From positions 1 to 64,000 of the forward strand of contig NZ_JAVESS010000007.1 of the NCBI RefSeq assembly GCF_034006445.1: 64,000 nucleotides of DNA. Direction: 5' to 3'. The DNA comes from Desulfovibrio sp. GTDB taxonomy: Bacteria; Desulfobacterota; Desulfovibrionia; Desulfovibrionales; Desulfovibrionaceae. This document shows positions 10,170 to 42,614 of this stretch, piece after piece (within the stretch, counting starts at the first letter, position 1; each line of letters begins with the position of its first letter). The notes below the pieces were generated by a model. It was given only the letters and a program-made list of their open reading frames with translations, did not search any database and was not told where the DNA came from. A program made the position numbers and the translations under genes.

Positions 10170-11647
10170 GCTGCAGAGACTGAGGGCATGCTCGCAGATA
10201 TCTTCAGTATAAAAGCGAAAGGCGCTTTCTTCCGCAGTTTTGGCCACAAGCAGTGCGATGCTGGCCCTGTTTATCATTTCCATAAAGGGCAGTTCTTCTT
10301 CCTCAATGGCATCTGTCGTGTAAATGCCCGCATGCAGGTGAAGGGGAAAAACATTGGAGGGCTCATATGCGCCGCGCTCTATCTCGCTGGCGGTATGCGC
10401 AAAGGTGGCGATCAGGCTTTCATGGTCTGTAAAAGGCATAATTCCGGCAAAAGTATCGCCAGTGATGTGACAGCAGCGGGCAAGCGGGCCACGGCAGTTT
10501 TTTTCAAGTATGCGCGCAATGCGCCGCAATTCTTTGTCGCCCGCCTTGACCCCGAGCATTTTGTTGTAGAACTTGAAATTCTTTATGTCTGCCAGCCAAA
10601 CGGCAAAGACCGTATCCGGATTTTTTCGCAAAAGTTCTGTTGCTTCCAGTTGCAGACGATGACTGTTGATGCCGCCGGTTACGGGGTCGACAAAAGCCAG
10701 CTTTTGCAGTTGGCGGTCGCGCCATTCTGTCAGCCGGTATACGCGCCAGGCCAGGAAGAGAAAGCAGATCAGCGCCAGAATGGTAACAACGCCTCCACCG
10801 TACAGCAGCAGGGGAGAGACGAGATCCAGCGCGTCCAGCGGCACCGCGCAGAAAAGAAGCCAGTTGTTGCTCTGAATGGGGTCAAAAGCCGCAAGATACT
10901 GTTTATTCTCATTATGATACAAAAAATAGTGCCTATGGCCCTGAGCCAGCTTGTTCAGGGCTTCCTGGTGGTCGGCTTCATTCACATGACCAAGGTCAAA
11001 AATGTTCTCCACGCCGCTGGCGGGGCCACGGTCTGAGGACAGAATAAAGTGCCCCTGAGCGTCAATCAGCCCCGCAAAGCCTTTGGCATTGAAAAGGGGC
11101 GTGCTGAGAATATTCAAAAAAACGTCCGCCCTTGTCAGCCCGATCAGTACATGGCTGACGTGCTCATCACTGGGCACGGGCACAGTACAGTAGATCACCT
11201 GACCTGGGGCGTAGGGATTTTTGCGGGGAGGGGAGAGAGCCGCTCCTCCCGCAAGGGCCGTGTGAAACGATTCCTCTTCAGAGAAGTCCACGTTGCGGGC
11301 GACAATGCCCTGCGCATCAGCCACATCGCCCAGGCCCGAGGGGGTGATGAGTCCGATGTGTGTAAAGCTGCTGTTGTTGCGGATTTCTTTATGCAGCGGA
11401 AGCGTTTTTTGCTGCGACATGTAGCTGACTGTGGTGGCAAGGCGTGAAGGGTCTGAAAATTTTGCGCCAGCTGGCGTTGCAGCAGTATTCGCAACTGCGT
11501 TGTGGTTTCATACAGGTGTATTATGTTTACCTGCTCGATCTGCCTGGTCGCGTGCCGCAGCAACATGAGGCTGCAGACAAGGAAAAGGCCGCCGACAATA
11601 AAGGCTATGGCGTAGATGCGTTTAATCTGCTGCTTGCTTCTGTACAT
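10167..11647 (-). pseudogene. membrane Cache-type sensor with degenerate GGDEF domain, frameshifted
   Basis: The intact gene would encode about 490 residues: TM1 (YAIAFIVGGLFLVCSLMLL), an extracytoplasmic Cache-like domain, TM2 (LLLYGGGVVTILALICFLFL) and a GGDEF-family domain. The frame is broken near 11437. Upstream it reads ...FQTLHALPPQS; after restoring one G (TTGGCC for TTGCC) it reads LATTVSYMSQQKTLPLHKE and continues to the end. The signature loop reads TGDTF in place of GGDEF, so even an intact protein should not make cyclic di-GMP. The frameshift may be a real mutation or a sequencing error. The TAG stop comes from the end of the adjoining repeat. Confidence 0.8.
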
Positions 11648-12328
11648 GCCGATCCTCTACAGAATGATATGTATAGTAAATACCTTAATCTATTTATTGG
11701 CAAGAGATAAAACAGCCGTTCCCATCTGTAAAGAAATTTCTCCTTTTATTTTGCTATATTACCTAAAGTTTTTAAATTATTCGAACGTGCGGGTGGCATC
11801 TGTTAGCACACGCAGATGCGCTGCAGCGCTTGCCCGTCCTGCTTTTTGGATCAACGGGAAGGTATGTGTGCGGAAGCACATATTTTTATTTTTTACGCAG
11901 GCAGACTCCTTAAGGCTTGCCGCCCAGTATATACTTTTGTGCACTATTTGGGTGAACTGCAAAAGGTGTAAATTTTTAGCAGCAGGGCACTATGCGCCTT
12001 TTTTATCATGAATTTAAATAGATTTTCTTATAGTTGTTTTATTCAAGTGTGTTATGAAGTCATGACATGGCGATGTTGAGATTTTCTTGTCGGCAGATTT
12101 TTACGGCCTAAAAATTTCTGTTCTTTTCCAGTATGTTATTAATGCTGTTTACTCTTAACCATGTGGTGCGGTAAGATACAAGCAGCGCAAGCGAAAGGCT
12201 GTTTGATTGTGCAAACAACCTGCAATGAACGGATGCCTCAGTCCTGCGGCCTGGCGGATACAGGCGGATATAAGGCATGGCCCCGCCCAGGTTGCCAGAG
12301 ACATTCATTTACCTCTGAGGATTATTTT
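11648..12328. other. AT-rich intergenic leader of the fumarate reductase operon
   Basis: About 680 bases with no credible gene. A long untranslated leader for mfrA is likely, since the ATG at 12329 is the first start with a good ribosome site. No riboswitch or terminator is recognisable. Confidence 0.4.
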
Positions 12329-33137: not shown

Positions 33138-33493
33138 CGGCTCAATCAGATTACCATTGAAATGCTTCACATTTCAATGTGCCATTCTGCCGAAACATGC
33201 GAGTTGCGGTAGAATTTGCTCTAGAGCATTTTGCTTTTGAAACATTCCATGTTTCAACGCACCATTCTGGCGAAAAACGTGGTTTGCGCCAGCCATCAGC
33301 AGGCTGCTTGCTCTATTAACCAATTGCTGTCTTAATCCGTAGCTTCCTTCGTCGCAACGGCTAAAGCTCGCCAGAATCCACGCCACTTCGTGGCGGCTGC
33401 CGCCTTCGCGTCAGCAGAGCAATTTCAAGCGGCAGCCGCTAGGCGACGAGAAGCCTTACGGATGGCGACAGCATCGCTAGTGAAATTGCTCTA
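33138..33493. repeat. repeat island: two truncated family A pieces, an insertion and family F copy 1
   Basis: 33141-33225 is a shortened A copy (TTACCATTGAAATG ... GGTAGAATTTGCTCTA). 33226-33300 is the left half of another (GAGCATTTTGC ... TTTGCGCCAG), and its right half resumes at 33370 (GCCAGAATCCACGCCAC) after about 70 inserted bases. 33416-33493 is an F element with ends AGAGCAATTTCA and TGAAATTGCTCT. It lies between the MFS and PEP-synthase-like genes and supplies the stop codon of the latter. Confidence 0.75.
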
Positions 33494-36052
33494 ATGATAC
33501 TCGCCCTTGAGAAATTTGTCGGCGCAGGCGGCAACAGCCGCCTCATCCACCATCAGCATGTCCATCTGGCGAGTCATGATAAGCAAACGCCCCAACTGAT
33601 CCAGCCGGGCACACAGTTCGGGCTTGGGATACTTCTGGTAACGTGCGCGTATCCTATCACCCGTAAGCTCAACGGTAAAGCCGAGTTCTTTGAGTATCAT
33701 GCCTATACAGCGAACCCTGCGCACTCTTTGTTCATCACTGGCGGCCCCGCCAGCAAACTCGAAACGTATGTAGTTTTTGCTCAGGGATTCGCCGCACCAG
33801 GTGTCCAGAATGGCGTAATGGTAGCCCACACGGGAAGAAAAATTCAGATATCGGTCAGAAACAATGGCATAACTGCGCTGGCCAAAGCGTGAACTGCCTT
33901 CCTGGTTGCCGCCGATGACGCTTTGCCCCATGACGGATAAAAAGCCCCGCATGTTTATGGGGCGCGGGCCGCGCGCCTGCACGGCGGGATTGAGCATGCC
34001 GTCAAGAACATGCCTGAAGGGCACGCTGGTCACATCGTCAGGGTGTACACGGCGCGATTCCGGGTTGCGCAGCCCGCCGCCGAGGTCGATGACATAGAGG
34101 TCCAGCGGTATGGAGCTCACAAGCTCGCTGGCTACCCCCGCGCTGTTGTCGGTGACGCTGTCGGATATCTTGAACATCTCGGAATAGCTCATTTCATGAG
34201 CATAGCGCATGATGTCGTGCAGCGAGGTACAGTGCTTGGGGGTAAAGGTGTCGGCCCTGGGATCCACCAGGTGCAGGGGCAGAATATAGGGAGTAATGCG
34301 GCGCAAGAGCATAAGGGCGGGGCTGTCGGCCCTGACCTGTGGGCGGGTAAGCCGCAGGGCCAGCAGTTCCGGCACTTCGCCGTCAAATATGCGGCCCATG
34401 AGGGCGTCAACCGTGACCACCTGGCCAGCGGCAAGCACGCCGGTGACGCCGGGGATGTTCATGAGCGTGGGCACGCCGAATTCCCGGCATATGGACGCCA
34501 TGTGCCCGGTCAGGCTGCCTGTCTGGGCAATAATGGCCGAGGCCCGGCGCATGACCGACATGGCGCTGGGCGAGGAGTGATCCATAAGCATTACGGCGCC
34601 TTCAGGAAAATGCGTAATGTCCTCGCCGTCGCCCACAAATACCACGGGGCCGCAGCCCACGCCCCTGGCCGCCACATCCGCTCCTGAAAGCAGGGGCCGC
34701 AGATGCCCCAAAATGGGGGCCGTCTTTTCTTCCGCCATGCTGTCGAGCCCCATGGGGCGCGTTTGCAGCAACACAATCTGATCGTCCTCGTCCACGGCCC
34801 ATTCCATATCCTGCGGATACTGGTAATGGCGTTCCAGTTGCATGACCATGTCCGCAAGCTGGCGCACCTGGTCGTCGCTGAGGCAGGGCACGTCCTGCAG
34901 GTCTTCCGGCACGGGCGTAAGCTCGCTTTCCACCCCGGCTTCGGTGCGCACCAGCCGCAGGCGCACGGCCTTGTGCGCAATGGTGGCCTTGGTAATCTTG
35001 CCCGTTGCCCGCGACACAAGCCACTGATCGGGTGTGCCGGAGCCGTCCACCACCATTTCGCCCAGCCCCCACAGGCCGTTGATGACAATGCTGTTGGAGC
35101 GCAGGTCAACGGGGTGGCGCGAAAAAGCCACTCCGGCAGCGCGGGAGCGCACCATCTCAAGACAGCACAGGCCCATGCCCGTGGCGTCCAGGGCATAACC
35201 GTGTTCGGAGCGATAGGCCAGAGCTCGGGGAGAAAACAGGCTGGCCACCACAGCCTTGAAGGCGGGTATCAGTTCATTGCGGGTAACGCCAAGCAGACTG
35301 CGGTATTGCCCGGCAAAGGATTGCACCCCGTCTTCGGCTATGGCGCTTGAACGCAGGGCCGCGACCATCTGTGGATCATCACCGTAGGCCAAGTCCCAGG
35401 CCTTGAGCAGGGCCTCTTCGACCTCCTGCGGCACAGGCGCTTCACAAATGATCTGTTCCACCTGGCGGGCGATGGCGTTGATGCTGTCCGGTTTTTCCGG
35501 ATCTATGGAGCGCAGCAGGGAATAGATGCTCTTGAAAAGCCCGGGAGTGCGCAAAAGAAAAATGCTCCCGGCCCTGATGGTGATGGCGAATCCGCGCGGT
35601 ACCGGCATATCCAGCATGTTGCGCAGTTCGCCCAGGTTGGCGTTTTTGCCGCCCACGCTGTAGGCCATGCTGGCGTCTATTTCAATGAGATCAAGGGTGA
35701 GGGTGGGCACATCACCGCTGGCGCGCTGGTCCAGCTCCTTTTCAATGCGTTTGGCAATGTTTTGCAAGGCGGCGTGCAAATCCTGATGCCGTTGATTGGA
35801 AATGTCATTGAGCGTGGTCGCCATGCGGTCGCAGCGAAAGATGGCCCGCCGGGCCTCCTTGCGCACCTGACTGGTTTCCATATGGCGCTCGCCCTGCTGC
35901 GTGGCGTTGAGGCCAGCCAGAATGCCCGCAAGGTCGGCGTTGGCCTGCAACAGTTCCTTGAACGAGGCGTACCGCCGATGAAAGGCGACCATGGCCTGCT
36001 CGCGCGTGATGCGCGGCTTGCGGCCAAAAAGTTTTTTCAGCTTGCTGACCAC
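33491..36052 (-). CDS. PEP-synthase-like protein lacking the PEP/pyruvate barrel
   Basis: An 853-residue protein. Residues 1-120 form a helical N-terminus. An ATP-grasp PPDK_N domain follows (SVGGKNANLGELRN near 132; ALRSSAIAEDGVQSFAGQYR; GVAFSRHPV; EWAVDEDDQIVLLQTRP). Then comes a swivelling phosphohistidine domain with TGSLTGHMASICREFG, its His near residue 517. The last 330 residues are not the PEP/pyruvate TIM barrel of PpsA or PPDK, whose motifs are absent, and I do not recognise them. The protein may therefore pass phosphate from ATP via His to another acceptor, as in rifampin phosphotransferase; that is inference. GTG start with AAGGGTG upstream, 35 bases after the sigma54 activator gene, so they are probably one operon. 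The TAG stop is made by the adjoining repeat. Confidence 0.75.
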   Translation of the reverse strand: MVSKLKKLFGRKPRITREQAMVAFHRRYASFKELLQANADLAGILAGLNATQQGERHMETSQVRKEARRAIFRCDRMATTLNDISNQRHQDLHAALQNIAKRIEKELDQRASGDVPTLTLDLIEIDASMAYSVGGKNANLGELRNMLDMPVPRGFAITIRAGSIFLLRTPGLFKSIYSLLRSIDPEKPDSINAIARQVEQIICEAPVPQEVEEALLKAWDLAYGDDPQMVAALRSSAIAEDGVQSFAGQYRSLLGVTRNELIPAFKAVVASLFSPRALAYRSEHGYALDATGMGLCCLEMVRSRAAGVAFSRHPVDLRSNSIVINGLWGLGEMVVDGSGTPDQWLVSRATGKITKATIAHKAVRLRLVRTEAGVESELTPVPEDLQDVPCLSDDQVRQLADMVMQLERHYQYPQDMEWAVDEDDQIVLLQTRPMGLDSMAEEKTAPILGHLRPLLSGADVAARGVGCGPVVFVGDGEDITHFPEGAVMLMDHSSPSAMSVMRRASAIIAQTGSLTGHMASICREFGVPTLMNIPGVTGVLAAGQVVTVDALMGRIFDGEVPELLALRLTRPQVRADSPALMLLRRITPYILPLHLVDPRADTFTPKHCTSLHDIMRYAHEMSYSEMFKISDSVTDNSAGVASELVSSIPLDLYVIDLGGGLRNPESRRVHPDDVTSVPFRHVLDGMLNPAVQARGPRPINMRGFLSVMGQSVIGGNQEGSSRFGQRSYAIVSDRYLNFSSRVGYHYAILDTWCGESLSKNYIRFEFAGGAASDEQRVRRVRCIGMILKELGFTVELTGDRIRARYQKYPKPELCARLDQLGRLLIMTRQMDMLMVDEAAVAACADKFLKGEYH

Positions 36053-36087: not shown

Positions 36088-39024
36088 TCAGCCTTCGGAA
36101 AGAGATGCGCCCACAACCACATATCGCTGGGCCGGGCCGCGGCCTTCCTTGCGCACAAGACCCATCTGCACGAAGAGTTGCAGATCGTACTGCGCAGTAC
36201 GCATGGAAATGTCCTTGCCCAGCATCTGCTGATATTCCTGGCGGCTTATGCTGCCCATGGCCACAAGGCGCGGCCACATCTCCGTCTGGCGGGAGTTGAG
36301 GCGGGCCATGGCCGTGCTCGTCATGCCGCCTGCGGCATCAGCGGTGTTCGCGCTCACGCCCGAGGCCGATGCAAACGCGGATTCCTGGCCGGGAGCGCGC
36401 TCAAAGCCGGGGGCGTACTGCGGCGTCTGGCGTGGCGGGCTGGCAGAGGCGGTGAAGCCCGATATGGGAGCCGCAGAGCCAGGCATGGAAGAAAAAGACT
36501 GCCCTGCAGCCTGGTTTTCTGTGGCGTCGCCAGGGGCCATGGCGGTTGCCCCATTGAAAGACTGCGGGTCGTCCCTGGTTGCAGCGCCGTTGCCGTCGCC
36601 GCCCGCGCCATGGTCAATCCGGCCTTGCAGACAGTCGCGGCCGTCCTGCATCTGCGGGTCAGCCATTTGTGCGGCCGCCTGCTTTTCGTGAACGTCGGCG
36701 GCCTTGACCCCATTGGACAGGGTTATGGAACCCAACTGGATATTTTCGGCATAAAGGATGTTTTCTTCGCAGAATGTCAGGGCGCGGGTCAGCGTATTTT
36801 TCAGTTCGCGCACATTACCGGGCCAGGAGTGGGCCATGAGCTTGGCAAGAGCGCCCCTGCTTATCTGCGGCATCTGCGGCATTTGCGGCATTTGGGCGGC
36901 GTTGGGCATCTTCGCTCCCTTGCCCGTACGGGAAGACAGTGCGGAGGAAAAGCCGTTGCTCTCGGCGTCGGTCTCGGCCTCGCTTGCCGCATCCATTTCG
37001 TCGGCCCTGGCCCTGGCCTTCACGGCTTCTGTGAGAAAATACACGGTCAGCGAGGGAATGTCGCTCTTTCGTTCCCGCAGGGGAGGCGTGTGGATGGTGA
37101 TGACGGCAAGGCGGTAATACAAATCTTCGCGGAAGGAGCCCTCGCGCGCGTCTTCAAGCAGGGAAGCGTTGGTGGCGGCGATGATGCGCGTGTCAAAGGG
37201 AACCTCCTGGTCGCTGCCAAGAGGGCGTATGCGCCGGTTGGACAGCGCGCGGAGCAGCGCCTGCTGCACCTTGGGCGCGGCGTTGCCCACTTCGTCCAGC
37301 ATGAGGGTGCCGCCTTCCGCCGCCAGAAACGCGCCCTTTCGGGCTTGCCGGGCCTCGGTAAAGGCTCCTTTCACGTGGCCGAACAGGGTGTCCATAAGCA
37401 GGTTTTCATCCAGCGCACCGCAGTTGATGGTGATGAACGGGCCGGAGGCCCGCGAGCTCAGGCGGTGTATGGCTTCAGACACCAGTTCCTTTCCTGTGCC
37501 GGTTTCACCGATGACAAGCACGTCGGCCAGAACCTGAGAGGCCTTGCGCACCTGATCGTACAGGGTCTGCATGGCGGGTGACGTTCCCACAAGGCCGCTG
37601 GCGGGCAGGTCTTCGGGGTGGGGCAGGTCGGGCGCGGGTTCGCGCTGCCATTGCGCGTCCTGCAGGGCCTCGTGGCTGAGGCGCTGTATCCTGGCCTGGC
37701 GCAGGCGTCCCAGCAGGACGTTGATGTCTGCCTTCACGCCTTCCAGTTCCCTGGGCATGGGCGGCAGGTCAAGGTCGTCGGAAACCCCCGTGATGTTGTT
37801 CTTGTGCAACGCCCACCCAAGGATGTTGAGCGATTTGCTCATCTGGCGCGCCAGCCACCACAGGCTCAGCGTTAAAAGCAGCATGCCCCCAAGAAAACTG
37901 ACGGTGTATATGCCCGTGACCTGCATGCCGGCGCGGGTGGTCGTAAAGCTGGTGTCCAGAACGGCCAGGCCGCCAAGCACAATGGGCGCGCCGCCCGAAC
38001 CGGGCGTAAAGCTTATGGGCACATAGCTCACCCGCTCCACCCGCATCTGGCCGTTGCTCCATACGGTGCTGCTTTCTGTCATGGGCAGCTGGTTGGCCTG
38101 CCCCGCCTGCACGTCGGCAACCATGCTCCAGTAATTGATGTGTTCCGGGCTTGGGCGAAAAGCCATGCTGAAGCCGGGACGCCCGTAGTCGCCCCAAAAT
38201 CCCGCCCGCACGGCGTCGTTGGCCAGGCTTTTGCTCGCCAGAGCCGCGTCTGGCGTTTCGGACTGAAACAGCATCCAGCCGTCCCTGTCGAAAAACAGGC
38301 TGCGCACGCGGGTTTCGGCTCCTGACGCCGCAATGGGGGCCTCCGGGGATGAATAGCGCGAAACGATGTCCCGCAGATCCTTCATATCAAGGGACAACAG
38401 CAGGTAGCCCTTGAAGTTGCCCTCGCTGTCCTGCACGGCCGTAAAAAAGCGCAGCACATGAAGGGACAGGCTTTGCAGGGATTTATTGACCGGCACCATA
38501 GAGTACACGGCCTCCATGGGTTGCCCCACATTGACATAGCCCGGCTGCTGTTCGCCGCTGAGGTTGTGAAAAGGGCTCGAGGGGCTGTCCAGCGCCACAT
38601 GCATGGGCACATTGATGACCTGCCCCTCGTGGTTGAGCAAAAGATAGCGGTTCTCGGGGGCAAGGCCCACGTAGGCCACCTCGCGGTAATGCAGGCCGTC
38701 GGCCCTGGCGCGGAACTCCAGCCTGTTTTTCATGTCAGCAGGGTCCATGGAACCTGCGGCCAGAATAAGCAGCTGGTTGCGTGTTTCTGCCAGCGCGTGC
38801 TCAAGGGCCAGCCTCATGCCCTGGGCCTGAAGCTGCGCGTTGCGCGCTATTGCGCGATTGACGATGTTTTCGATGCTGCTGCCGGTGGCGACAAAGATAA
38901 GAAGCAGAACCACGGCCAGCAGGGGGAGGCCCAGTATGAGCATTCGGCTGACAAGACTGCGATTCATGAAAAAGGAGGTGATATCCAACGTGCTGCCGCC
39001 GGGAAGCGTTCTGTAGAAGCGCAT
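36088..39024 (-). CDS. membrane-bound sigma54-dependent activator with winged-helix C-terminus
   Basis: A 978-residue protein. TM1 is at about 28-50, an extracytoplasmic Cache-like sensor at 50-360, TM2 (GIYTVSFLGGMLLLTLSLWW) at about 370, a linker, then an AAA+ sigma54-interaction domain from about 480. Walker A is GETGTGKE (about 505), the sigma54 loop is GAFTEA (about 553; consensus GAFTGA) and the Walker B region is GGTLMLDEV. The AAA+ domain is interrupted by an MPQMPQMPQ low-complexity insert before WPGNVRELKN. A Gln/Ala/Ser-rich linker follows, then a winged-helix-like end (SISRQEYQQMLGKDISMRTA ... RYVVV) in place of the usual Fis helix. It lies divergently from the sigma54 promoter at 39158, its likely target. 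Confidence 0.85.
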   Translation of the reverse strand: MRFYRTLPGGSTLDITSFFMNRSLVSRMLILGLPLLAVVLLLIFVATGSSIENIVNRAIARNAQLQAQGMRLALEHALAETRNQLLILAAGSMDPADMKNRLEFRARADGLHYREVAYVGLAPENRYLLLNHEGQVINVPMHVALDSPSSPFHNLSGEQQPGYVNVGQPMEAVYSMVPVNKSLQSLSLHVLRFFTAVQDSEGNFKGYLLLSLDMKDLRDIVSRYSSPEAPIAASGAETRVRSLFFDRDGWMLFQSETPDAALASKSLANDAVRAGFWGDYGRPGFSMAFRPSPEHINYWSMVADVQAGQANQLPMTESSTVWSNGQMRVERVSYVPISFTPGSGGAPIVLGGLAVLDTSFTTTRAGMQVTGIYTVSFLGGMLLLTLSLWWLARQMSKSLNILGWALHKNNITGVSDDLDLPPMPRELEGVKADINVLLGRLRQARIQRLSHEALQDAQWQREPAPDLPHPEDLPASGLVGTSPAMQTLYDQVRKASQVLADVLVIGETGTGKELVSEAIHRLSSRASGPFITINCGALDENLLMDTLFGHVKGAFTEARQARKGAFLAAEGGTLMLDEVGNAAPKVQQALLRALSNRRIRPLGSDQEVPFDTRIIAATNASLLEDAREGSFREDLYYRLAVITIHTPPLRERKSDIPSLTVYFLTEAVKARARADEMDAASEAETDAESNGFSSALSSRTGKGAKMPNAAQMPQMPQMPQISRGALAKLMAHSWPGNVRELKNTLTRALTFCEENILYAENIQLGSITLSNGVKAADVHEKQAAAQMADPQMQDGRDCLQGRIDHGAGGDGNGAATRDDPQSFNGATAMAPGDATENQAAGQSFSSMPGSAAPISGFTASASPPRQTPQYAPGFERAPGQESAFASASGVSANTADAAGGMTSTAMARLNSRQTEMWPRLVAMGSISRQEYQQMLGKDISMRTAQYDLQLFVQMGLVRKEGRGPAQRYVVVGASLSEG

Positions 39025-39157
39025 CAGGGAGCCCCCTTTTGTGGTTGCGCAAAAAAGCGCAATCTTTGTGGCGACTATAGGTCAGTTGCGAAAAAGTGGC
39101 AAGATGTTTCGTGCAAACATAGGAAAAAATCGGCCAATTACGCCAAATATCATGCAA

Positions 39158-39173
39158 TGGCACGGGGATTGCT
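39158..39173 (+). promoter_or_regulatory. sigma54 (-24/-12) promoter
   Basis: TGGCACGGGGATTGCT matches the consensus TGGCAC-N5-TTGCW, with the invariant GG and GC ten bases apart. It lies 96 bases before the 39269 start codon, in the gap shared with the divergent activator gene. TTGCGC-N6-GCGCAA at 39045-39062, about 100 bases upstream, is a candidate activator site. Confidence 0.85.
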
Positions 39174-39268
39174 ATCTTTTTCACATTCACTGCGTGAAAA
39201 TCGGTGTGGCCCGGTGTGGGAACAGCCGAAGAGAGTCCAAAAGGAACGCAAACTGAGTGGAGGGTTTT

Positions 39269-39571
39269 ATGAAGAAGATGCGCAAGCTCATGACGTGGCT
39301 GGCAGGCTGCGCGCTCATGCTTGCCGCCATGCCTGGTCTGGCCCTGGCAGCTGGCGGCAAGGCAACGTCGGTGGTTCTTGTGGCCGATACGCGCAAGCTG
39401 GACGGCATACTGTACTGGTGGGCCGAAATGTACAATGAAAGCCATTTATTTTTCGCCATCCTGACCATGCTCATCATTCCTACCGTGGGATGCATTCTGG
39501 GCTGGCTGGCTGACATCGTCATGACGCACATCGGCATTGACCTCAAGCACCGCGAACTGGCCGAAAAGTAA
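39269..39571 (+). CDS. small membrane protein, first gene of the sigma54 operon
   Basis: A 100-residue protein with an N-terminal signal or helix (LMTWLAGCALMLAAMPGLAL) and a second helix (FFAILTMLIIPTVGCILGWL). It ends in a charged tail (MTHIGIDLKHRELAEK). I do not recognise a family. GGAGGG lies before ATG at 39269, and the TSUP gene follows after 11 bases, so the two are surely cotranscribed. It is probably an accessory subunit of that transporter, which is inference from context. Confidence 0.75.
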   Translation: MKKMRKLMTWLAGCALMLAAMPGLALAAGGKATSVVLVADTRKLDGILYWWAEMYNESHLFFAILTMLIIPTVGCILGWLADIVMTHIGIDLKHRELAEK

Positions 39572-39582
39572 GGGGGCACAAT

Positions 39583-40647
39583 ATGGAATGGCTGTATATT
39601 TTGATGCCCATTTCCGGCGTGAACATTTTTTGGCCGGGGCTGCTCATTCTTGGATTCGGCGTGGGTATTATCGGCGGCTTCTTCGGTATGGGCGGCGCAT
39701 GGATGGTGACCCCCGGTCTGAACATCCTTGGCTTCCCCATGGCTTTTGCCATCGGTACCGACGTTGCGCAGATGGCCGGTAAATCACTTATTTCTACCAT
39801 GCGTCACGGCAAGTTCGGCAACGTTGACTACATGCTGGGCGTCACCATGCTCATCGGTACGATCTTCGGCGTTGAACTCGGCGCGCAGATGGTCATGTGG
39901 CTTGAGCGCATAGGCTCGGTGGACAAGGTCGTGCGCTGGCTCTACGTGGTGCTGCTCATATCCATTGCCTGGCTGGTCTTCCACGACGCCGCAGTGCGCC
40001 GCCGTAAGGAGCGCGAGGCCAAGGCACATCAAACGGAACTGGACGCCACCGCTGTGGGTGTCGACTGGGCTTCACGTCTTCAAGCCATCAGGATTCCTCC
40101 CGTTGTACACTTCAAGCATGCCAACATCACCTGCTCTGCGTGGCTGCCCATCGCGGTCAGTTTTTTCACGGGCTGGCTGGCCGGTATCCTCGGTATCGGC
40201 GGCGGTCTCATCCGTATGCCCGCTCTGGTCTATCTTGTGGGCTGCCCCACCCATCTGGCAGTGGGCACGGACCTCTTTGAAGTTGCCATTTCCGGCCTGT
40301 ACGGCACGGCGTCCTACGCGTACAAGGGTCGCGTGGAGCTCCTGGCCGCCCTCATCATGCTGGCTGGCGCTGCCGTTGGAGCGCAGATAGGCGTGGTGGC
40401 CACCAAGTACGTCAAGGGTTACGGCATCCGTTTTGTCTTCGGCCTGGCCGTTCTCGGCTGCCTTATGTCGGTTGTACTCAAGCTTCTTGAAGCCGAATTC
40501 CCGGCCTGGGGCTGGTTGCTTGGCCCTCTGGCCACCGTTGAAGTGCTTGGCTTCGTGAGTGCCATTTCCATCTACATCGCGGTGAAGATGGTGCAGGGCG
40601 CCAAGGCGGAATTGGCCGCCAAGAAGATGCGGGCAGCGAACAGCTAG
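39583..40647 (+). CDS. TSUP (TauE/SafE) family transporter
   Basis: A 354-residue membrane protein of the TSUP family. The first half has GFGVGIIGGFFGMGGAWMVTP and the second half LAGILGIGGGLIRMPALVYL, the paired glycine-rich repeats of the family. GTDVAQMAGKSL and GTDLFEVAISGLYG are the matching second-helix motifs. A basic cytoplasmic loop (RRRKEREAKAHQTELD) joins the halves. It is a second TSUP carrier in the window. AAGGGGG lies before ATG. Sigma54 control suggests induction by a specific ligand sensed by the membrane activator. Confidence 0.88.
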   Translation: MEWLYILMPISGVNIFWPGLLILGFGVGIIGGFFGMGGAWMVTPGLNILGFPMAFAIGTDVAQMAGKSLISTMRHGKFGNVDYMLGVTMLIGTIFGVELGAQMVMWLERIGSVDKVVRWLYVVLLISIAWLVFHDAAVRRRKEREAKAHQTELDATAVGVDWASRLQAIRIPPVVHFKHANITCSAWLPIAVSFFTGWLAGILGIGGGLIRMPALVYLVGCPTHLAVGTDLFEVAISGLYGTASYAYKGRVELLAALIMLAGAAVGAQIGVVATKYVKGYGIRFVFGLAVLGCLMSVVLKLLEAEFPAWGWLLGPLATVEVLGFVSAISIYIAVKMVQGAKAELAAKKMRAANS

Positions 40648-40660
40648 GAGGAACACAGTC

Positions 40661-41254
40661 ATGAAGATTCGTAGTTTGCTGCTTATAATGGTTCTTGGAC
40701 TGACCACCTTTCTTGCCGCCTGCAACTTCGAAGGCGGAGTGGAACAGGGCCGCTGTGTGGCCTTTAACCCCGAAGGCAAAACAATAACCATCGTTGTTGA
40801 CGTTACCCATGACCAGTTCAACCCCCATTACAGTGGCGGAACGCATACCTACAAGTTGCCCACCACTCCTGGTGAAATGGGTCCCACGCCTGAAGTGGGC
40901 GGCCGCCTGATGATCGATCTGGCCAAGAATAACGTGCTCATTTATGACAACAACGCCAACGCCGTGCGTGAAATACCCGTGCAGTTCGTTGACGTGGAAA
41001 AGAACATCCGGCCCAAGCATCCCAAGGTGGCTGGCAAGACGTTCCCCATCGTGGACAAGGAACAGCAGACCGTTACGGTGTACTCCAGCCGTCTGAGCTC
41101 CCTGATCACCTTCAAGGTGCCTGCCAGCGAAATCGACCTGCCGGTCTATGCCTGGACGGCCGGCAACGAGATGCGCGTCGCCTTCCGCACCAGCGACAAG
41201 GATCAGGCCATCCGCATCATGAACGTGAGCAAGACCAACATCTTCAGCAAGTAA
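40661..41254 (+). CDS. lipoprotein of the sigma54 operon (DUF4881-like)
   Basis: A 197-residue lipoprotein precursor. MKIRSLLLIMVLGLTTFLAAC ends in the lipobox LAAC with Cys21 as the lipidation site. The rest is soluble and beta-rich (GKTITIVVDVTHDQ, GGRLMIDLAKNNVLIYD, QQTVTVYSSRLSSLITFKV). It resembles proteins annotated DUF4881 in Desulfovibrio, from memory only. TAGGAGGAACACAGTC precedes ATG, 13 bases after the TSUP gene. It may be a periplasmic partner of the transporter. Confidence 0.75.
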   Translation: MKIRSLLLIMVLGLTTFLAACNFEGGVEQGRCVAFNPEGKTITIVVDVTHDQFNPHYSGGTHTYKLPTTPGEMGPTPEVGGRLMIDLAKNNVLIYDNNANAVREIPVQFVDVEKNIRPKHPKVAGKTFPIVDKEQQTVTVYSSRLSSLITFKVPASEIDLPVYAWTAGNEMRVAFRTSDKDQAIRIMNVSKTNIFSK

Positions 41255-41322
41255 GCATATACAGCGTCACACTGCCGGGGCGGGCCATAAGCCTGCCCCG
41301 GCAAAAGCCTTTGGAGAGCAGA

Positions 41323-41637
41323 ATGAACAGCTACAAGCAGCACCTGTATATCAGTGGCATACGTATAACGGCCAATGCGCTCATGGTGGCGGCGGTCTTT
41401 GCGGCCGCGTATCAATCGTCGCGCAGCTTTAATTCTGCTGAACTGGTCTTCTGCGCCTGGTTTTTCGGCATCTCCATTCCCCTGTGGGCCGGAGCCTTCT
41501 GGCTGACACGGCTGGTGCGGCGGCGGTTTCCCGCAGAAGGGGTGAGCATGGTGGAGTTGCCGCGCAAGGGGCTCAGCCTGGTGAGCTGGCGCGTGCTGGA
41601 GTCTTCGTCGCACTCCTTGACGGTGCAGCGCTCATGA
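41323..41637 (+). CDS. small two-helix membrane protein
   Basis: A 104-residue protein with two hydrophobic helices (ITANALMVAAVFAAAYQS, LVFCAWFFGISIPLWAGAFW) and a basic loop after the second (LTRLVRRRF). No family recognised. GGAGAG precedes ATG at 41323. The stop overlaps an ATG of the next frame, typical of tight operon packing. Confidence 0.65.
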   Translation: MNSYKQHLYISGIRITANALMVAAVFAAAYQSSRSFNSAELVFCAWFFGISIPLWAGAFWLTRLVRRRFPAEGVSMVELPRKGLSLVSWRVLESSSHSLTVQRS

Positions 41638-41666
41638 TTGCCGCCCCCGCGTGCAGAGGATATAAT

Positions 41667-42614
41667 GTGCCCATGCAGACCGTTCTTGACGCCAGCATAT
41701 GGGAATCCTGCCAGGACATCCGCCAGCGCCAGCACAAGCTGGGGATGGTCTGCGCGGTTTTTCTGGTTGTGGCCCTGCTGGGACTGGTGGACGGGCTTCA
41801 GGGGCTCATGCGGTCAGGGGCAACCACGCTTGAACTTTTGCCGGGAAAATCGGCGGCGCTTTCAGGCCAACTGACGATCAAAAATCCTGTGATGCGGGAT
41901 ATCGAAGTAAGTTTCACTCCGGCGAACGCCCCACTGACGTTCAATCTTGAAGGTTTTTTTGCGGGATACTGGTTTGGCAACGGCATGTGGCGCGGCGTGG
42001 TAAGTGCCGAAAATCAGGCGGAACCTGGTGAATACCACATGCGGGTGGCCTTCAGGGGCGCTGCCGCCAGCACCTTTCAAAACTATATGGTGCAGGTGCA
42101 TGCCGATGCCAATGACATGCGCGCCCAGTCCACGTCCTTTGTCCTGCGGCTGACCGGGGTCAATCCCTTTGTGCTGGCGGTGGGCTTTGTGGGCCTGGCG
42201 CTCCTGGTTGGCGTGGGCGTCTATCGGCAGGGCTACAGGCTCATCCGCATGCTGGTGCGCATGGGCTGCGGCGAAATTGTGCGCGTGCAGGAAGAAAAGG
42301 ACGGCGTGCGTTTGTGGTGCCTCCTTTACGGCTCACGGCCACCGTATGAGGGCACGGTCTGCGCTGTCATCACCGCCGGAGGCGGGGTGCTGGCCCATGC
42401 CCGCGCATGCACGGCGGCCAAGGGGCTTCTGCAGCTTTTCATCTCATGGCCTGCCCCCGAGAAGAATGAATCCGGCCCTGTGTGCAATGAATCCGGCCAG
42501 GTACAGAAAGAATCCGGCCTTGTACCAAAAGAAAAAAATTTCGCCGTGCGGCCTGGCTGCCTTGTCTGCCTGCGACCCCCGTGTTCGCAGTCTCCTCCGG
42601 CCCCTACAAGCTGA
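41667..42614 (+). CDS. membrane protein of unknown function, last gene of the sigma54 operon
   Basis: A 315-residue protein with TM1 (GMVCAVFLVVALLGLVDGL), a beta-rich extracytoplasmic domain of about 115 residues, TM2 (NPFVLAVGFVGLALLVGVGV), then a cytoplasmic domain (QGYRLIRMLVRMGCGEIVRV) of 125 residues. The end carries three imperfect repeats (NESGPVC, NESGQVQ, KESGLVP). The external domain resembles an immunoglobulin-like beta sandwich (ALSGQLTIKNPVMRDIEVSF). Start uncertain: GTG 41667 follows AGAGGA at good spacing; ATG 41634 overlapping the previous stop, or ATG 41673, are alternatives. Confidence 0.6.
   Translation: MPMQTVLDASIWESCQDIRQRQHKLGMVCAVFLVVALLGLVDGLQGLMRSGATTLELLPGKSAALSGQLTIKNPVMRDIEVSFTPANAPLTFNLEGFFAGYWFGNGMWRGVVSAENQAEPGEYHMRVAFRGAAASTFQNYMVQVHADANDMRAQSTSFVLRLTGVNPFVLAVGFVGLALLVGVGVYRQGYRLIRMLVRMGCGEIVRVQEEKDGVRLWCLLYGSRPPYEGTVCAVITAGGGVLAHARACTAAKGLLQLFISWPAPEKNESGPVCNESGQVQKESGLVPKEKNFAVRPGCLVCLRPPCSQSPPAPTS

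Follow-up and report, generated by a model that had tools for sequence, protein, structure and literature searches.

A membrane-bound sigma54 activator, its divergent TSUP transport operon and a dikinase-like partner in Desulfovibrio: a further member of the predicted DVU0151 regulon

The 64-kb stretch of DNA analysed here (the window, to which all coordinates refer; positions 1 to 64,000 of contig NZ_JAVESS010000007.1, assembly GCF_034006445.1, Desulfovibrio sp.) carries a gene block in which a membrane-bound sigma54 activator stands divergent from a transport operon. On the minus strand lie a gene for a dikinase-like protein of 853 residues (33491-36052, with a GTG start at 36052 assigned from its ribosome-binding site) and the gene for a one-component activator of 978 residues (36088-39024), identified from its domains, the alignment of its orthologues and published work (PMC4641369) as the orthologue of DVU0151 of Desulfovibrio vulgaris. 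The plus strand carries the five-gene operon, whose gene starts (39269, 39583, 40661, 41323 and 41673) were set from Shine-Dalgarno context and conservation in orthologues. A start at 41484 for the last open reading frame was rejected, as it overlaps the neighbouring gene, in favour of 41673. The initial annotation had confined the block to 36088-42614, a range which misses the dikinase-like gene; the latter is located 3' of the activator gene, in the same direction, and belongs to the block.

The first operon gene (39269-39571, start placed by its ribosome-binding site) encodes a small membrane protein of 100 residues with two hydrophobic segments, which belongs to the DVU0150 family (NF040783, 137.9 bits; cut-off 70). 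It is followed by a TSUP (TauE/SafE) carrier (39583-40647; PF01925, 148 bits, cut-off 32.6, covering residues 20-291), in which three cysteines, C184, C221 and C293, are kept in 70, 69 and 71 of 72 orthologues, respectively, and occur in none of nine neighbouring TSUP paralogues. The third product (40661-41254) is a DUF4881 lipoprotein (PF16222, 264 bits) with the lipobox LAAC; in some Desulfovibrionaceae loci a shorter secreted protein of about 111 residues occupies this position (e.g. 11381-11725 in locus L117). Solved structures were sought by sequence for the carrier and the DUF4881 protein, and none was convincing. The last two genes encode the small membrane protein m5 (41323-41637; two hydrophobic segments, conserved in 16 close loci) and the membrane protein m6 (41673-42614), the last gene in about 60 loci, in which a transmembrane helix, a predicted periplasmic domain, a second transmembrane helix and a cytoplasmic tail succeed each other. 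Profile searches assigned no family to m5 or m6, the latter being without any Pfam match.

A sigma54 -24/-12 promoter, TGGCACGGGGATTGCT (39158-39173, plus strand), faces this operon. It matches TGGCAC-N5-TTGCW with zero mismatches; no second exact match occurs in the window, and the 3.5-Mb genome contains seven in all. Upstream of the operon, 43 of 50 activator-linked loci have a site with zero or one mismatch (1.4 expected) and 25 of the 50 an exact one (0 expected); among loci lacking the one-component activator, 12 of 21 have a site with zero or one mismatch (0.3 expected). The site at 39158-39173 exceeds chance, as it is conserved upstream in orthologous loci. The initial annotation had described the promoter as near-perfect and as pointing into genes for a small membrane protein, a TSUP carrier, a lipoprotein and two membrane proteins: the match proves to be perfect and the profile matches bear out the gene products. 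Its view of the divergent gene product as an extracytoplasmic sensor fused to an AAA+ activator is likewise upheld by two transmembrane helices, a dCache fold and a match to PF00158.

The transmembrane helices of the activator lie near residues 28-46 and 374-392, and the region between them (about residues 47-373; 37906-38886, minus strand) is predicted to adopt a double-Cache (dCache) fold, in which a long helix carries two PAS-like modules. Residues 1-430 were modelled with AlphaFold2 on 43 orthologues at a mean pLDDT of 81.8, and Foldseek aligns the modelled sensor with solved dCache ligand-binding domains, such as those of TlpA and PctD, with a probability of 1.00. The corresponding profile, PF02743, is detected in 20 of the 43 orthologues and remains below cut-off in the window protein itself (23.4 versus 45). 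The model settles the domain type of the sensor as dCache, not its ligand. The AAA+ sigma54-interaction domain (Sigma54_activat, PF00158, 203 bits; residues 478-645; 37090-37593, minus strand) contains the Walker motifs GETGTGKE and LMLDE, and reads GAFTEA at the position of the GAFTGA loop. The strict form GAF[TS][ED]A is present in 44 of 52 orthologues and an acidic fifth loop residue in 51, the remaining one having GAFTGA. In NorR the substitution G266D, at the same loop position, retains open-complex formation and escapes repression by the GAF domain (PMC2941729), so the membrane-controlled activator may, by analogy, not use the NorR-type GAF repression surface. NorR-type proteins are also AAA+ sigma54 activators, in which G266D shows that activation is compatible with an acidic residue in place of the second GAFTGA glycine, but they combine GAF and Fis domains where the window protein has a membrane dCache sensor and a winged helix. 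A Fis-type helix-turn-helix is usual, though not essential, in sigma54 enhancer-binding proteins. The C-terminal DNA-binding domain of the window activator (about residues 905-970; 36115-36312, minus strand) is a winged helix and not of the Fis type, as judged from invariant columns and winged-helix Pfam matches in orthologues, and DVU0151 is a known exception in this respect (PMC4641369). The activator also has low-complexity insertions (encoded at 36330-37060), among them MPQMPQMPQ in the AAA lid region and an extended linker, probably disordered, that precedes the winged helix; these insertions are not conserved in orthologues.

Candidate binding sites for the activator were sought in the 200 bp upstream of the sigma54 site, with expectations taken from dinucleotide shuffles. 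The half-site GCGCAA/TTGCGC occurs 109 times in 49 loci with the activator against 22.6 (sd 4.5) expected, an approximately fivefold excess, and twice in 16 loci without it against 1.6 expected, the enrichment being confined to loci with the activator. In the window a perfect palindrome, TTGCGC-N6-GCGCAA, is located at 39045-39062 and an imperfect one, TTGCGAAAAAGTGGCAA, at 39086-39102, their centres about 41 bp apart; the spacing between the perfect palindrome and the promoter (-128 to -139) is constant in ten congeneric loci. The two palindromes are proposed as the enhancer sites of the activator. A consensus scan places a possible sigma70-type promoter upstream of the activator gene (TTGCCA-17-TATAGT, 10/12 positions; 39074-39102, minus strand), and since the perfect palindrome sits between it and the activator start, autoregulation is possible. 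The genome holds 22 such palindromes, the majority inside open reading frames, and no convincing sigma54 site lies within 500 bp of any of the others that were examined (one further palindrome in the same contig was left out); the regulon therefore most likely comprises a single operon.

For comparison with other genomes, the DVU0150 and DUF4881 models were searched in the family and the phylum (66/149 and 40/297 genomes) and 60 neighbourhoods were compared, with gene calling weighted by homology. The initial annotation had proposed conservation of the block as a check, and the order is indeed kept in dozens of loci: dikinase-like and activator genes in one direction and, in the other, the small membrane protein, TSUP carrier, DUF4881 protein, m5 (not always present) and m6. 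On the evidence of these neighbourhoods the block recurs across Desulfobacterota and is widespread among sulfate reducers. In many distant families the first operon gene encodes a universal stress protein (PF00582, e.g. L109:7992-8423), which is absent from the window. Some families lack the one-component activator, and six loci (L098, L102, L103, L107, L071 and L076) have a divergent NtrC-type regulator and a large histidine kinase instead. A swap of the sensor between the activator and these kinases is not claimed, as the homology is marginal (E 0.003 or worse). The description of the system as self-contained in the initial annotation does not hold, since the block includes the dikinase-like gene and other families use a histidine kinase with an NtrC-type regulator.

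Two 1.6-Mb genomes retain the operon in a reduced setting, those of Ca. Desulfovibrio kirbyi (locus L065) and of a Desulfovibrio known as a metagenome-assembled genome (locus L060). In Ca. D. kirbyi the activator and dikinase-like genes are gone and the MFS gene which flanks the dikinase-like gene in the window directly adjoins the operon; the L060 locus likewise lacks activator and dikinase-like genes. A sigma54 site is not recognisable upstream of either operon (best candidates with four mismatches in L065 and three in L060), and 900 bp contain no half-site in L065 and one in L060. The dikinase-like family is absent from both genomes, where only an ordinary, shorter match to a different long protein was obtained, while rpoN and aprA are present; SulP, the sole sulfate-transporter family searched, is absent from both whole genomes. 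Activator, dikinase, enhancer and sigma54 site are in this comparison jointly absent, and the operon is kept under genome reduction without its regulatory unit. The published genome of Ca. D. kirbyi is that of a reduced, probably sulfate- and fumarate-respiring ectosymbiont (PMC7608387). The conserved divergent order, the occurrence of enhancer-like sites only with the activator and this joint absence support, at the level of sequence, the proposal of the initial annotation that the activator controls the divergent operon.

The dikinase-like gene adjoins the activator gene in most loci. Its product combines a PPDK_N ATP-grasp domain (PF01326, 290 bits) with a PEP-utilizers phosphohistidine domain (PF00391, 57 bits) in which the histidine is conserved, and resembles in this respect phosphoenolpyruvate (PEP) synthase and rifampicin phosphotransferase. 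It differs from them in its C-terminal domain, which replaces the PEP-binding barrel: this region has no Pfam match, so that no PEP/pyruvate-binding barrel is recognised, and a function as PEP synthase was rejected on that account. The domain comprises 290 residues, is conserved in 41 homologues and is modelled by AlphaFold2 with a pLDDT of 81.6, while its best match among folds of the Protein Data Bank reaches only E 0.04. The genome holds three further full-length members. One belongs to a second operon with TSUP carrier, dikinase-like and receiver genes (L164:8037-16252, at about 285000-293300 of contig G000:C1), divergent from genes for a histidine kinase and an NtrC-type regulator, with weak sigma54-like sites (two mismatches) in between; this operon resembles a published nitrate cluster (PMC4001038). 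The other two flank a histidine kinase and a receiver (L163:7223-15200, about 157000-165200 of the same contig), an arrangement which suggests that the family belongs to phosphotransfer signalling. From these two contexts and the mutant phenotypes of the nitrate cluster, we infer that dikinase-like proteins are signalling or regulatory partners of TSUP carriers. As the reduced genomes without the dikinase-like protein keep the carrier, it is probably such a regulatory partner and not a component of the pore. Through this family an unexplained phosphotransfer protein becomes accessible to genetics.

The core of this finding has been predicted before, contrary to the novelty implied by the initial annotation. 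Kazakov et al. 2015 (PMC4641369) predicted that DVU0151 of D. vulgaris, a single-component activator with a GAFSEA motif, whose DNA-binding domain is not of the Fis type and probably a winged helix, controls DVU0150-DVU0146 ('transmembrane transport'), and no further mention of DVU0147-DVU0151 was found in the open-access papers searched. The window block is a further member of that computational regulon. It shares the one-component activator, the winged helix, the divergent sigma54 promoter, the transport operon and the first gene of the DVU0150 family, with NF040783 above its cut-off and gene order and promoter conserved. It differs in that PMC4641369 assigned no sensing domain, that its text names no substrate, and that the dikinase-like neighbour lies outside the regulon predicted there. 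What is added here is the type of sensor, the candidate enhancer, the joint absence in reduced genomes, the association with sulfate reduction and the unusual dikinase-like partner, as well as the recurrence of the block and the family-wide acidic loop residue. A second comparison concerns the nitrate cluster DVU0251-DVU0245/Dde_0597-0605 of Korte et al. 2014, where D. vulgaris becomes resistant to nitrate through insertion into the gene for the TSUP carrier, for the receiver or for the PPDK-like protein; those authors suggest a thiosulfate transporter that is leaky (PMC4001038). There too a TSUP carrier is clustered with signal transduction proteins and with a protein of the PPDK_N/PEP-utilizers type, and mutants share a phenotype. 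That cluster, however, has a kinase and a receiver and lists no DVU0150-family or DUF4881 protein, whereas the window block has a carrier and a dikinase-like protein together with a one-component activator.

A connection to sulfate reduction is seen in the distribution of the carrier. Of 297 phylum genomes sampled, 56 from 19 families encode an orthologue of the carrier (identity of 57% or more), and 54 of these are aprA-positive (two by fragments) compared to 119 of the 297 overall (Fisher p 3e-23, uncorrected for relatedness). Because the carrier occurs near-exclusively together with aprA, a sulfur oxyanion is a plausible substrate. In TsuA, a carrier of another family, three conserved cysteines act in thiosulfate transport (PMC11582611); the TsuA/YeeE proteins resemble the window carrier in having three conserved cysteines in a sulfur-compound carrier, yet differ in protein family. 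The aprA association and the three cysteines favour a sulfur compound, while not deciding between sulfate, thiosulfate and sulfite or on direction. Uptake of the electron acceptor in sulfate reducers is only partly known: D. vulgaris deleted for three annotated sulfate permeases still respires sulfate (PMC7531388), and a substrate has been assigned to none of the nine TSUP carriers of this species (PMC5840216). The present block is a specific candidate: its promoter is defined, it has a candidate enhancer, its regulator is exchangeable, and there are reduced genomes in which the operon is retained in the absence of SulP.

Our best reading is that the operon serves induced sulfur-oxyanion transport, and we hold, with somewhat better than even confidence, that a one-component transmembrane switch controls a TSUP-centred transport complex for sulfate, thiosulfate or sulfite. 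The dCache domain would bind its ligand outside the membrane and thereby let the AAA+ domain act as a hexamer; the winged helix would bind the predicted palindromic TTGCGC-N6-GCGCAA sites, and the hexamer would open sigma54 polymerase at 39158-39173. The operon would then yield the carrier, the small membrane subunit, the lipoprotein and two further membrane proteins, and the dikinase-like protein would probably phosphorylate some target that tunes the activator or the carrier. A bolder and less probable proposal is that the five-gene complex is one of the missing sulfur-oxyanion importers and that, at the same time, the dikinase-like neighbours are phosphohistidine regulators of a new family, have a C-terminal fold that is likewise new, and couple receivers, kinases or activators to TSUP carriers.

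Several points weigh against induced sulfur-oxyanion transport. We infer the substrate of the carrier and the ligand of the sensor from context; the p value of the aprA association ignores phylogeny; 65 of the 119 aprA-positive genomes lack the carrier, which is thus not essential for sulfate respiration; and L060 comes from an assembly whose completeness is not established. The carrier of the nitrate cluster is probably only a distant relative, judged from the roughly 30% identity of the neighbouring TSUP paralogues here, and that cluster includes a PtxB-like component of which no counterpart was recognised in the window block. Furthermore, the TauE/SafE relatives of the carrier, from which the family takes its name, are described as exporters. 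The carrier could accordingly be an exporter as well, the sensor detecting envelope stress or a toxic anion (sulfite, a sulfide-derived or another oxyanion) which the operon pumps out, and both the inducible regulation and the universal stress protein heading the operon in many distant loci fit such a response. We regard this as rather improbable, given the retention of the operon in two 1.6-Mb sulfate-reducing genomes without regulator and without SulP, and the comparable nitrate cluster, in which cells that have lost the carrier are protected from nitrate, contrary to what losing a nitrate exporter would bring about (PMC4001038).

The initial annotation had named a sulfur oxyanion, a sulfonate or an organic acid as a plausible ligand. 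The first remains plausible from the co-occurrence with aprA, whereas the near-restriction of the carrier to aprA-positive genomes opposes the other two, as does the lack of a PEP-binding barrel in the dikinase-like protein, whose paralogues elsewhere accompany kinases and receivers. A system for organic acids or sulfonates, with the dikinase-like gene as a PEP-synthase-type link to carbon metabolism, is for these reasons unlikely, even though amino or organic acids are frequent ligands of dCache sensors, sulfonates are among the compounds that TSUP members can transport and the dikinase-like protein resembles PEP synthase in its first two domains. Least probable by far is that another sigma54 activator of the cell controls the operon. 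Such activators do number in the dozens in sulfate reducers (D. vulgaris has 37, PMC4641369) and the GAFTEA loop of the divergent one is non-canonical, but the acidic residue is family-wide and NorR with G266D at the same position still activates (PMC2941729); the divergent arrangement, the half-site enrichment and the joint absence also speak for the divergent activator.

In L109 (1895-19692), and similarly in L108 and L111, the TSUP operon is found amid runs of receiver and histidine-kinase genes. No good sigma54 site was recognised upstream there, and a second TSUP gene and two dikinase-like genes accompany the operon.

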